Source: an uncultured Flavobacteriaceae bacterium (lineage in GTDB: Bacteria > Bacteroidota > Bacteroidia > Flavobacteriales > Flavobacteriaceae). Taken from it: 32,574 nucleotides of DNA. Location of the stretch: positions 1-32,574 of the forward strand of contig CALKEO010000045.1 in assembly GCA_938088195.1 (NCBI GenBank), given 5' to 3'. Of this stretch, positions 20,135-29,060 are shown piece by piece. The position numbers and the translations under genes are program-made. Numbering within the stretch: the stretch's first letter is position 1; the number at the start of each line of letters is the position of its first letter. The notes beneath the pieces are model-generated. The model saw only the letters and a program-made list of their open reading frames with translations. It had not been told where the DNA came from and made no database searches.

Positions 20135-21673
20135 TTATTTCGGATCTATTACAATAAACGGAACTAACATTTCTTCCATCGATATTCCACCATGCTGATA
20201 AGTGTTTTTAAACATATTTACGTAGTTGTTATAATTGTTTGAATATACAAAGTAAGTTTTCTCTTTCGCAAAAATATAACAACTTGATAAGTAATTAGAT
20301 GGAAGTAAAAAATCAGAGGGTTCCTTTAAACTTAATGCTTCTTTTTTTGTTGAGTGAATTTGTTTTGATGTTTTATATCTTAAATTATTAGAAATTTCTT
20401 TATCGCCAGAAACCAAAGCAGGTTTCTCAACACTAATAGTACCATGATCCGATGTTAAAATTATTTTAAAACTTAAAGTTTTAGCTTTTTTTATTATATC
20501 ATTTAGTTTAGAGTTATTGTACCATCCTTTTGTGAGCTCCCTGTAAGCTTTATCGCTCGAAGCTAATTCTTTGATGAATTTAACATCTTTTTTGGCGTGT
20601 GAAATCATATCAACAAAATTGTATACAAGTACAGTTAAATCATTTTTCTTGTGATTGTTTAAATTATTTAAGAATAATTCACCATCTTTTGAATTAGAGA
20701 TTTTATGATATTTAAAATTATTTTTTAAACCTAATCTTATAAACTGCTTATTTAGTAATTCACTTTCAAATTTATTCTTTCCATCCTCATTAGTTTCGTT
20801 AATCCAATACATTGAATGAGCATTGCTAATTTCCAGTGGACTTAATCCCGCAAAAATTGAATTTCTTGCATATTGAGTTGTGGTTGGTAGTATACTAGGA
20901 TAAATTAAATCAGTTTTGATATGACAATTTTCAATTACATACGGTTCGATTGACTTCCACTGATCAAACCTTAAATTATCAATTAAAATCATTAAAGTTG
21001 AATGGTTTTTTGATAATTCTGGTACTATTTTTTTTTTAAATAAATTAATTGAGGAAAGGTAATTACTAGTATGAATTAAATCTTTATAATTTTTTTCAAT
21101 GAAATTTGAATATAATTTATTAGCTTGTTTTTTTTGAGATAAAAGAATTTCATAAATATCTTGTTCGCCAATTTCACACAATTCCAATTCCCAAAAAGTA
21201 AGAGTTTTATAAACATCTATCCATTCTTCAATTGTTTCTGAATAATTAATTTTATTGTTTAAGTCCAAAAATATTTTTTGATAATTAGAAATGGTTTTGC
21301 TGCTAATTATTTCTTTTTTTCTAAAAATTTTAGTTAAACTCATTAATATTTGATTCGGATTTAGAGGTTTAACTAAATAGTCACTTATTTTTAATCCTAT
21401 AGCATCTTCTACTGTGTCATTATCATAATTTTGAGAAATCATTAATAATGGAATATTTGAATGATGTGTTCGAATTATTTCTATTGTCTCAGTGCCTGAT
21501 AAGCCTGGCATATTTTGATCTAATAGTATTGCATCATATGAGTTTTTTGAAATAATATCTAATCCCTCAAGTCCACTTTTACATGTTGTTGTTTTGTATC
21601 CTTTTTTTTCTAAAAAAAGGATATGAGACTTGAAATGGTCAATTTCATCATCAATCCACAAAATATTTTTCAT
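20135..21673 (-). CDS. porX: PorX: response regulator with PglZ domain
   Basis: PorX is the response regulator of the PorXY system that controls type IX secretion and gliding or virulence genes in Bacteroidota. Residues 1-118 form a CheY-like receiver (IDDEID at 7-12, phospho-acceptor D52 in LLDQNMPG, conserved K102 in VKPLNP). After a helical linker the PglZ/alkaline-phosphatase-like domain begins near residue 225: LIDNLRFDQW contains metal ligand D232, LPTTTQYARNS holds the nucleophilic threonine region (264-266), and SDHGTISV carries further metal ligands. Published P. gingivalis PorX hydrolyses cyclic oligonucleotides with zinc. At 512 residues it is full length. It leads the porX-tsaE-DUF4258 operon; no PorY kinase gene is in the window. 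Confidence 0.93.
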   Translation of the reverse strand: MKNILWIDDEIDHFKSHILFLEKKGYKTTTCKSGLEGLDIISKNSYDAILLDQNMPGLSGTETIEIIRTHHSNIPLLMISQNYDNDTVEDAIGLKISDYLVKPLNPNQILMSLTKIFRKKEIISSKTISNYQKIFLDLNNKINYSETIEEWIDVYKTLTFWELELCEIGEQDIYEILLSQKKQANKLYSNFIEKNYKDLIHTSNYLSSINLFKKKIVPELSKNHSTLMILIDNLRFDQWKSIEPYVIENCHIKTDLIYPSILPTTTQYARNSIFAGLSPLEISNAHSMYWINETNEDGKNKFESELLNKQFIRLGLKNNFKYHKISNSKDGELFLNNLNNHKKNDLTVLVYNFVDMISHAKKDVKFIKELASSDKAYRELTKGWYNNSKLNDIIKKAKTLSFKIILTSDHGTISVEKPALVSGDKEISNNLRYKTSKQIHSTKKEALSLKEPSDFLLPSNYLSSCYIFAKEKTYFVYSNNYNNYVNMFKNTYQHGGISMEEMLVPFIVIDPK

Positions 21674-27220: not shown

Positions 27221-28039
27221 ATGGATAAATTAAGTAAAGTTGGATTGCCAGTTGTTATAATGGTAATGTTTGGTTTCATTATACTTATGAAATCAGCTGT
27301 AAATATTGGTTACGGAGAAGCTGGTGTGTTATTTAAAACATTTGGAGGTGGAGTTGTAACTGACGAAGCTCCCCTTGGTGAAGGTTTTCATATTATTGCT
27401 CCTTGGAACAAAGTTTATTTATACAACGTTAAGCAACAAGAAGTTTTTGAAAGCCAAATGCAAGTACTTTCTTCAAATGGTCTAGAGATTTCATTAGATG
27501 TTTCTGTTTTATATCAACCCAAAGCAGATGAATTAGGTTTATTGCATCAAACCAAAGGTTCTAACTACCTTGATATAGTTATTGTTCCAAATATTAGAGC
27601 TGTAGCAAGAAGTGTAGTTGGAAGATATACACCTGAACAATTGTATTCAACTAAAAGAGACGCTATTGAAAGTGAAATTTATGATGAGTTAAAAAAAGGG
27701 GTTGAAGCGCAACATGTTCAAATTAATGATGTTTTAGTAAGAGATGTCACTTTACCCAACACAATTAAACAAGCAATTGAAAGAAAGCTAAGTCAAGAGC
27801 AAATGTCTCTTGAGTATGAGTTTAAGCTTGAGTCTGCTAGAAAAGAAGCTGAAAAGGTTAGAATTGATGCTCAAGGAAAAGCTGATGCAAACAGAATATT
27901 GAACTCATCATTAACTACAAATATTTTAAGAGATAAAGGAATTGAGGCTACAACAAAATTATCTGAGTCTCCTAATGCCAAGGTAATTGTAATTGGTAGC
28001 GGAAAAGATGGTTTGCCAATAATTTTAGGAAATCAATAA
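27221..28039 (+). CDS. Prohibitin-family (SPFH/band 7) membrane protein
   Basis: Residues 8-24 form a single N-terminal membrane anchor. The SPFH/band-7 domain follows, about 28-200: GEAGVLFKTFGGGV, GFHIIAPWNKVYLYNVKQQE, VSVLYQPKADEL, VVGRYTPEQLYSTKRDAIE and VLVRDVTLPNTIKQAIERKLSQEQ. Residues about 195-235 form a charged coiled coil (EYEFKLESARKEAEKVRIDAQGKADANRIL), as in prohibitins. It probably assembles into large rings on the cytoplasmic membrane acting as a scaffold or protease modulator; partners are not visible. It is the last gene before the his leader region. Confidence 0.9.
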   Translation: MDKLSKVGLPVVIMVMFGFIILMKSAVNIGYGEAGVLFKTFGGGVVTDEAPLGEGFHIIAPWNKVYLYNVKQQEVFESQMQVLSSNGLEISLDVSVLYQPKADELGLLHQTKGSNYLDIVIVPNIRAVARSVVGRYTPEQLYSTKRDAIESEIYDELKKGVEAQHVQINDVLVRDVTLPNTIKQAIERKLSQEQMSLEYEFKLESARKEAEKVRIDAQGKADANRILNSSLTTNILRDKGIEATTKLSESPNAKVIVIGSGKDGLPIILGNQ

Positions 28040-28073
28040 ATTTTTTATAATATTTGTGTTTTAATTATTTACA

Positions 28074-28130
28074 ATGAAATTTAACCGTAACAACCATCAT
28101 CATTTAAATATCCTCAAACGAGCGATGTGA
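28074..28130 (+). CDS. hisL: Histidine operon leader peptide
   Basis: An 18-codon frame, MKFNRNNHHHLNILKRAM, ending in TGA, has three consecutive His codons (28095-28103). It stands between the prohibitin gene and hisG and is followed by an intrinsic terminator. Ribosome stalling at the His codons would report charged tRNA-His. The stop lies just after a segment that can pair with the terminator stem. It is too short for routine gene calling. A weak -7 candidate (AATATTTG, 28049-28056) precedes it. Confidence 0.87.
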   Translation: MKFNRNNHHHLNILKRAM

Positions 28131-28187
28131 TGATATTGTTATATTATTATATAAGCCCGTTTGTTAATTCAAACGGGTTTTTTTTTT
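28096..28187 (+). promoter_or_regulatory. his operon transcription attenuator (alternative RNA pairings)
   Basis: Four pairings can be read. The His codons (28096-28102) pair perfectly over 7 bp with 28128-28134. Segment 28115-28123 (CAAACGAGC) pairs at 8 of 9 positions with 28155-28163, the 5' arm of the terminator, forming an antiterminator. That same 5' arm pairs with 28170-28177 to form the terminator. A ribosome stalled at the His codons leaves 28115-28123 free, favouring read-through into hisG; a ribosome reaching the stop covers it, favouring termination. Confidence 0.8.
28153..28187 (+). terminator. Intrinsic terminator in the his leader (attenuator)
   Basis: CCCGTTTG (28156-28163), a 6-nt loop TTAATT and CAAACGGG (28170-28177) form a perfect 8-bp stem, extendable by G-U and A-U pairs, followed by ten T residues (28178-28187). 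It is the only strong factor-independent terminator I see in the window, and it lies 15 nt before the hisG ATG. Confidence 0.92.
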
Positions 28188-28202
28188 AATAAAATTTAAT
28201 AA

Positions 28203-29060
28203 ATGAAAAAACTTAAAATCGCAATTCAAAAATCAGGAAGATTAAATACAGATTCTTTAAATCTTTTAAATAAGTGCGGCATTAAAATAGACAACTACAA
28301 GGATCAACTAAAAGCATCAGCAAGAAATTTTCCTGTTGAAGTTTATTTTTTAAGAAATAGTGATATTCCGAAATATATCGATGACGGAGTAGTAGATCTT
28401 GCTATAATCGGAGAAAATTTACTTATTGAAAAGAATTTTGATATTGATATTATTGAAAATCTCGGTTTTTCAAAATGCAAAGTTTCTATTGCTGTTCCAA
28501 AAGATGTGGAGTTTGATTCTATTTCTTATTTAAATAATTTAAAAATAGCAACATCTTACCCAAATACACTTAAAAAGTTTTTAAAGAAAAATAATATTAA
28601 AGCAGACATTCATGTAATAAATGGTTCAGTAGAAATAGCTCCAAATATTGGACTTTCTGACGCTATTTGTGATATAGTTTCGAGCGGAAGCACACTCTAC
28701 AAAAACAATTTAAAAGAAGTTTTTATTATCCATGAATCACAAGCTGTTTTAGCTGGAAATAAACAAGTTTTAGAATCAAACAAATATTTGCTTGATAAGC
28801 TTTTGTTTAGAATCAGAGCTGTTTTAAAAGCTAAAGAATCTAAATATATACTTTTGAATGCTCCAAATAATAAAATAAACGCTATTTCAGAGATACTTCC
28901 TGTTTTAAAAAGTCCAACTGTTCTTCCATTAAATAAAGAGGGTTGGAGCTCATTACATTCTGTGATAAATGAAAATACCTTTTGGGAGGTGATCGATAAA
29001 ATTAAAGAAGCAGGTGCTGAGGATATACTAGTGTGTCCAATTGAAAAAATGGTTTTATAA
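28203..29060 (+). CDS. hisG: ATP phosphoribosyltransferase (long form)
   Basis: It catalyses the first step of histidine synthesis, joining ATP and PRPP. LKIAIQKSGRLNTDSLNLLNKCGI is the usual opening, DLAIIGENLL and KIATSYPNT belong to the catalytic periplasmic-binding-protein-like domains, and DAICDIVSSGSTLYKNNLKE contains the PRPP-binding loop (ISDLVSTGxTL-like). Residues about 213-285 are the C-terminal domain that binds histidine for feedback inhibition (LLNAPNNKINAISEILP, PTVLPLNKEGWSSLHSV). At 285 residues it is the long form, which does not need HisZ. The gene sits behind the leader attenuator and overlaps hisD by one base (TAATG). Confidence 0.95.
   Translation: MKKLKIAIQKSGRLNTDSLNLLNKCGIKIDNYKDQLKASARNFPVEVYFLRNSDIPKYIDDGVVDLAIIGENLLIEKNFDIDIIENLGFSKCKVSIAVPKDVEFDSISYLNNLKIATSYPNTLKKFLKKNNIKADIHVINGSVEIAPNIGLSDAICDIVSSGSTLYKNNLKEVFIIHESQAVLAGNKQVLESNKYLLDKLLFRIRAVLKAKESKYILLNAPNNKINAISEILPVLKSPTVLPLNKEGWSSLHSVINENTFWEVIDKIKEAGAEDILVCPIEKMVL

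Follow-up and report, generated by a model that had tools for sequence, protein, structure and literature searches.

A predicted nested histidine attenuator upstream of hisG in Flavobacteriaceae

A proposed histidine leader attenuator in front of hisG

The 32,574-nucleotide (nt) stretch of contig CALKEO010000045.1 analysed here (positions 1 to 32,574; hereafter the window), from an uncultured Flavobacteriaceae bacterium, carries hisG behind an intergenic stretch of 163 bases. We propose, with a probability of roughly 0.87, that this stretch holds a ribosome-mediated, histidine-sensing transcription attenuator that governs the his operon. It contains the parts by which leader attenuators are recognised, a short open reading frame (ORF) with a run of His codons and an intrinsic terminator between this leader and hisG (Table 1). 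The 18-codon leader with its three adjacent His codons, a perfect terminator stem of 8 base pairs (bp) followed by ten Ts, and a pairing at 8 of 9 positions between the end of the leader and the terminator's 5' arm had all been described in a first-pass annotation of this DNA, and all are present as described. The terminator goes further than its eight Watson-Crick pairs (CCCGTTTG/CAAACGGG) and is extendable to 11 (28153-28163 with 28170-28180), with the first three Ts of the run at 28178-28187 able to pair in the extended stem. In the competing pairing, 28115-28123 (CAAACGAGC) faces 28155-28163 (GCCCGTTTG) with a single miss, an A.C mismatch. A second hairpin, 28125-28136 with 28141-28152, lies inside this antiterminator; it has 12 pairs, three of them G-U, and was absent from the first-pass annotation. 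By its anatomy the system is histidine-specific, and it is a nested variant of leader-peptide attenuation.

We number the pairing segments 1 to 6 in the order of Table 1. The leader would respond to histidine in the cell through the position of the translating ribosome. When charged His-tRNA is plentiful, the ribosome would reach the stop codon and its footprint would cover segments 2 and 3; segment 5 would then pair with segment 6, and RNA polymerase would halt at the T run before hisG. When His-tRNA is scarce, the ribosome would wait at the His codons and leave segments 2 and 3 free. The hairpin of segments 3 and 4 (3:4) would form, bringing segment 2 beside segment 5, and segment 2 would capture segment 5 before segment 6 exists, so that transcription proceeds. 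When no ribosome is present, segment 3 may be taken up by the His codons (1:3), which would shut segment 2 in a loop and favour termination; this is the least certain part of the scheme.

His-codon runs are conserved upstream of hisG

Of the 22 genomes in the window's genus, 13 have a HisG match (in G001 only a remote one), as do 166 of the 199 in its family. Upstream DNA was taken from 89 of these 166, counting the window, from 11 additional genus genomes and from four further named records, which gave 104 regions, of which 102 were usable after two at contig edges (L023, L028) were set aside. An ORF with at least two His codons within eight is found in 101 of these 102 regions, against 15.9% of 510 shuffled sequences. 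With at least three the count is 97/102, against 1.2% of the 510 shuffled sequences and 1/102 antisense strands, and 60 regions hold at least four. The His-codon runs expected in the leaders of related flavobacteria are thus there.

The sole region without even a two-His ORF belongs to Blattabacterium. This region (L016; Blattabacterium cuenoti, an insect endosymbiont) has hisG and an upstream hairpin with a T-rich tail, and no His leader was detected in it by the scan; loss of the sensor is possible. In nine of the 22 genus genomes, one of them 93% complete, there is no HisG match, which may reflect either incomplete assembly or histidine auxotrophy. A search of viral contigs for HisG relatives found none.

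Ninety-nine of the 101 His-leader regions carry an arm of the CCCGTTTG type, and these 99 leaders were analysed jointly. Rows were dropped as duplicates (L005-L009, L011-L013), for lack of a leader (L016), for another arm motif (L015, L097), for lying on the wrong side (L120) or for poor HisG matches (L031, L017, L018). Two candidate terminator relatives, L003 and L004, were rejected: the matched region was the start of hisG, not the terminator.

The antiterminator strand covaries with the terminator arm

The typical antiterminator strand of the 99 leaders is CTCAAGCGAG, facing the arm CCCGTTTGAG. Across ten pairs, 827 of the 990 cells hold a standard pair, compared with 814.8 ± 2.9 after shuffling, and both sides have changed in 15 cells, compared with 4.8 ± 1.9; neither observed count is reached in any of 500 shuffles. 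The compensatory change among relatives on which the pairing of 28115-28123 with 28155-28163 had been staked is seen in these both-side changes. Covariation was counted on anchored blocks because the MAFFT alignment A1, which comprised 74 of 90 leaders and served only to build the covariance model R1, shifted the antiterminator strand of the window's genus by two columns. The strand of L057 was placed by hand, and L104, whose strand is doubtful, was kept here and in the masked folds. The predicted antiterminator, which would exclude the terminator, is kept by covariation.

The strand lies in reading frame 0, 2 or 1 in 81, 13 and 5 of the 99 leaders (four rows being doubtful, overlapping or past the stop), and its translations by frame are mostly ...QAR/QAS, ...LKRVM and ...NEL/SEL. 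Since the same strand is read in three frames, it is the RNA, that is, the nucleotides, and not the peptide that is conserved. Irrespective of frame, position 9 of the strand (window 28121) forms an A.C mismatch with the arm in 91 of the 99 leaders and a standard pair in three. The mismatch may be what tunes antiterminator against terminator. In all 99 leaders the antiterminator forms the weaker duplex of the two, by a mean of 6.4 kcal/mol in a comparison that gives the terminator three bases more. Eleven leaders, the window's among them, have TT after the arm in place of a GAG-type extension; all 11 have an A at position 6 of the strand, which is found in only 6 of the other 88. Judged from this A, the strength of the switch seems to be balanced.

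Modelled folds depend on the masked ribosome position

The folding states were modelled by masking a ribosome footprint that reaches 17 nt upstream and 12 nt downstream of the A-site codon's first base. Prefix folds were made for the 99 leaders with RNA ending just past the terminator's 5' arm, and pairing sums were divided by 8 and may exceed 1. The antiterminator exceeds 0.5 in 97/99 leaders with the ribosome at the first His codon, in 92/99 at the last and in 0/99 at the stop codon; with the footprint shortened by 3 nt on each side the numbers are 96, 95 and 0. The strand is clear of the ribosome in all 99 leaders when the first His codon is in the A site and lies within the footprint in 97 when the ribosome is at the stop codon. 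This agrees with the first-pass proposal that the ribosome exposes the strand at the His codons and hides it at the stop.

Two further pairings prefer their own partners

Duplex energies of cognate and permuted partners were compared in 60 dereplicated leaders of 98 (L104 left out) over 2000 permutations. The antiterminator strand prefers its own arm (z = -5.1). The His-codon segment likewise prefers the first 15 nt after its own stop codon (z = -5.5; 0/2000 permutations reach the value), and the first part of the stop-to-terminator region prefers the second part (z = -3.7; 1/2000), in a test where the two halves overlap by two bases. Eight control pairings range from -1.6 to +2.4. In a version with 97 leaders (L104 and L057 out), the cognate partner beats the non-cognate mean in 69 for the antiterminator and in 65 for the His codons. 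In the full-length fold of the window, segment 1 pairs as 28096-28103 with 28127-28134 (8 bp) and as 28087-28093 with 28136-28142 (7 bp). The first-pass annotation had the His codons pairing over 7 bp: the pairing exists and outdoes permuted partners, and its extent, 8 + 7 bp, had been understated.

A promoter-like box precedes the leader

Taking the Bacteroidetes promoter-box consensus from the available part of PMC9723704, we find that 37 of the 99 leaders have an exact TAnnTTTG between -45 and -8 relative to the leader start, compared with a mean of 4.2 and a maximum of 11 in mononucleotide shuffles. The window is not among the 37, its box having one extra base between TA and TTTG. From the box at 28046-28056, a transcription start near 28061 is predicted, which would give a 5' untranslated region of about 13 nt. 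In some relatives, L034 (GATATTTGCACCCATG) among them, only a few bases separate the end of a -7-like box from the leader's ATG. Given this short distance, some leader mRNAs may be nearly leaderless.

Spread in the order and class

The covariance model R1 was built from 74 leaders. On the window's own genome it gives one strong match, the window itself at 90.8 bits, and the next scores 26.8 bits. Nine other matches with loci in this genome were rejected as leaders: one is the antisense strand of the window, and none of the remaining eight is leader-like by eye with its ORFs, no family search having been made. At E ≤ 0.01, weak matches included, R1 matches 121 of 246 genomes of the order. Forty-one regions among the matches listed were inspected (five in the window's family); 31 have a His leader with hisG behind it, and the other ten do not lie in front of hisG. 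Because R1 itself models the His codons, these 31 leaders are no independent test. Independently of R1, an ORF with at least three His in eight codons is present in 36 of 40 hisG upstream regions from other orders of the class, a count without a shuffled control of its own, in a sample of 40 of the 61 other-order genomes with a HisG match.

Leaders with a terminator by scan make up a distant set of 60, of which 28 come from the order and 32 from the class (L015 and 31 of the 40). Seventy rows had been entered, including 29 of the 31 order leaders, and ten were lost: four class rows without a leader, and five class rows and one order row without a terminator. The terminator scan was ungapped; by eye, a bulged hairpin can be seen in L214 and L215. 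Half of the 32 class-level leaders use another arm; GGCTT[AG]CC is contained in 16 of the 32 arms, and 3 are of the CCGTTTG type; GGTAAGTC and GGTAGGCC are examples of the antiterminator strands that go with class-level arms.

In 45/60 leaders of the distant set a ribosome at the stop codon would cover the arm's best complement completely, compared with 21.9 expected from uniform placement, and in 11 it would cover it partly. The position of the strand in distant leaders fits the covering by the finishing ribosome that was first proposed for the window. The complement is better than 95% of shuffles in 35/60, and 29 of these 35 lie fully in the stop footprint, compared with 12.5 expected. It overlaps the stop codon in 23/60, with p ≤ 0.05 in 15 of the 23. 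On sequence grounds we regard the attenuator design as confirmed to be real and old in the class.

We put forward more tentatively, at a little short of even odds, a fuller model of a class-wide his attenuator. It would comprise four mutually exclusive pairings: the His codons with the post-stop segment, the post-stop hairpin, the antiterminator and the terminator. Its antiterminator strand would slide around the stop codon in any frame, overlapping it in some leaders; it would be held under the finishing ribosome, and a preserved mismatch would keep its pairing weaker than that of the terminator arm.

Other amino acids, isoleucine for example, may be served by a switch of this design. One of the ten R1 matches away from hisG, in the window's family (L241; G389:C29:18500-22800, reverse strand) has tandem Ile-rich leaders, MKTNSNIIIISIIIRSFE and MKTNMNIIIISIIIRSFE, each ended by a stop codon. 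They have 18 codons each, with seven Ile, and each has its own terminator. The genes that follow encode, by NCBIfam, a branched-chain transaminase and a dihydroxy-acid dehydratase (ilvE-ilvD). In both leaders a candidate antiterminator strand from -4 to +11 nt around the first base of the stop codon pairs with the terminator arm over 12 positions. This pair is one case, with no control.

Weighing the alternatives

Several results count against the histidine-sensing attenuator as set out above. Prefix folds favour the antiterminator (>0.5) in 36/99 leaders without any ribosome and in 59/99 with a ribosome on the start codon, and lengthening the footprint by 3 nt on each side lowers the count for the last His codon to 62, with 97 for the first and 0 for the stop codon. 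Folded at full length and at equilibrium, 95/99 leaders give the terminator more than 0.5 even with the ribosome at the first His codon; since the terminator wins at equilibrium, antitermination must be kinetic and decided during transcription. The cognate effects are modest, with mean ranks of 0.41 for the antiterminator (ties counted against it) and 0.62 for both 1:3 and 3:4, and relatedness among the leaders remains in the shuffles and permutations. Four of the 60 distant leaders have their best complement beyond the stop footprint, and in 25 it does not outdo 95% of shuffles.

The points that bear most on the details concern the His-codon pairing. The no-ribosome prefix of the window favours the antiterminator (0.87), while its full-length fold forms the His-codon pairing, and the same prefix favours the antiterminator in five of nine other genus leaders (L010 not counted). 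The idea that the His codons enclose segment 2 therefore stands as a pairing that can form, and not as the dominant structure of the no-ribosome prefix in these leaders. These folds speak for an attenuator without a His-codon cage, in which segments 2, 5 and 6 (with the 3:4 hairpin) and the position of the ribosome suffice, and in which the pairing of the His codons with 28127-28142 is an accident of AT-rich CAT/ATG repeats. Such an accident is at odds with the preference of the His codons for their own segment 3, which no permutation matched, whereas the same His segment reaches only z = -1.6 to +1.1 with four other segments. We judge the cage-free version somewhat doubtful, though still a serious contender.

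Explanations that dispense with histidine sensing fare far worse. The terminator could respond to another sensor, such as a T-box, a riboswitch or an RNA-binding protein, and the stretch from the stop codon to the terminator does have structure; yet neither the window nor 12 further loci give an Rfam match at gathering score, and the His run would go unexplained, which makes such a sensor highly improbable. Slightly less credible still is the view that the hairpin simply terminates the upstream Band_7 gene, with an ORF in front of it by chance and the hisG promoter downstream. The hairpin does lie between two same-strand genes, but chance would have to account for His runs in 97/102 regions, for the promoter-like box in 37/99 leaders against 4.2, and for an antiterminator that covaries.

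Relation to known systems

A scan of the window against Rfam found no family at gathering score, including the T-box and riboswitch families and His_leader. At E ≤ 10, 16 sub-threshold matches fall in 28000-28260; they include Thr_leader (25.3 of 55 bits) and Trp_leader (15.5 of 41), and His_leader (RF00514) is not among them.

In the enterobacterial his leader, which we take to be the family Rfam lists as RF00514, a run of His codons stalls the ribosome, and an antiterminator and a terminator compete before hisG in successive segments after the control codons. The window shares the His run and, as predicted, the stalled ribosome and the competition between antiterminator and terminator. It differs in layout: a single antiterminator strand occupies the final leader codons, and its pairing surrounds a second hairpin. 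The first-pass view of the window as the more compact of the two therefore holds, set against this general background, for the layout and not for the principle. Vitreschak and colleagues are said to have predicted candidate amino-acid attenuators by comparative genomics in 2004, in a paper whose abstract reportedly names Bacteroidetes/Chlorobi.

Structured 5' elements of F. psychrophilum, conserved in other Flavobacteriaceae and without Rfam matches, include one at hisG, and strong clues for leader-peptide attenuation before amino-acid biosynthesis operons are given in the portion of PMC9723704 available. This element resembles that of the window in being a hisG 5' element in Flavobacteriaceae, so that the element as such is already known. 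Unlike the map presented here, the main text of PMC9723704, as far as available, gives hisG without a leader sequence, pairing map or mechanism. The Bacteroid-trp motif RF01692 is listed in PMC2864571 (available in part) as a likely Bacteroidetes cis-regulatory motif; its name points to trp, and it is not matched in the window. The authors of PMC2965389 (2010), in the part available, state that to their knowledge leader-peptide systems had been shown only in Proteobacteria and Actinobacteria, to which they add Firmicutes. A his attenuator in Bacteroidetes is not described in the available portions of PMC4833913 and PMC7366714. We found no pairing map of such an attenuator in the literature, judged by titles and abstract openings, often of the best-ranked papers, and with subscription papers mostly outside the search. 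As far as this literature shows, novelty lies in the pairing map, in a strand that slides independently of frame and in the footprint rule.

The hisG locus

The window comes from an assembly of 1.53 Mb that is 80% complete. Its HisG is 94% identical to that of 'Cryomorphaceae bacterium BACL29', and the closest named records are flavobacterial metagenome-assembled genomes. The intergenic stretch lies between the Band_7-family gene (27221-28039, same strand) and hisG, which is followed by a histidinol dehydrogenase gene (hisD), a class I/II aminotransferase gene and an IGPD gene running to the window's end. Elsewhere in the window, 20138-21673 on the reverse strand encodes a protein that joins a response-regulator receiver to a PglZ domain, an architecture reminiscent of PorX, a type IX secretion regulator of Bacteroidetes.

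Table 1. Features of the hisG upstream region in the window and the evidence for each
Feature	Position	Strand	Description	Evidence
Promoter -7-like box	28046..28056	+	TATAATATTTG, near Bacteroidetes TAnnTTTG	sequence
Leader peptide ORF	28074..28130	+	MKFNRNNHHHLNILKRAM, then stop; ATG 28074, TGA 28128-28130, 18 codons	
Segment 1	28087..28103	+	can pair with 28127-28142 (8 + 7 bp)	fold, permuted-partner test
Three His codons	28095..28103	+	putative control codons	sequence; His runs in relatives
Segment 2	28115..28123	+	putative antiterminator strand, mimics terminator 3' arm; A.C mismatch at 28121	pairing, covariation
Segment 3	28125..28136	+	5' half of nested hairpin, includes stop codon; competes with segment 1 pairing	
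Segment 4	28141..28152	+	3' half of nested hairpin, 12 pairs with 28125-28136	
Segment 5	28153..28163	+	terminator 5' arm; its part 28155-28163 is the partner of segment 2 in the antiterminated state	
Segment 6	28170..28180	+	terminator 3' arm	
T run	28178..28187	+	ten Ts	sequence
hisG	28203..29060	+	first gene of putatively regulated operon	

Implications

The sliding of the antiterminator strand around the stop codon amounts to a natural experiment, indicating that selection acts on coverage by the ribosome and not on the sequence of the peptide. The comparison yields a map of pairings and, for a large bacterial group, a rule of amino-acid control that can be tested.
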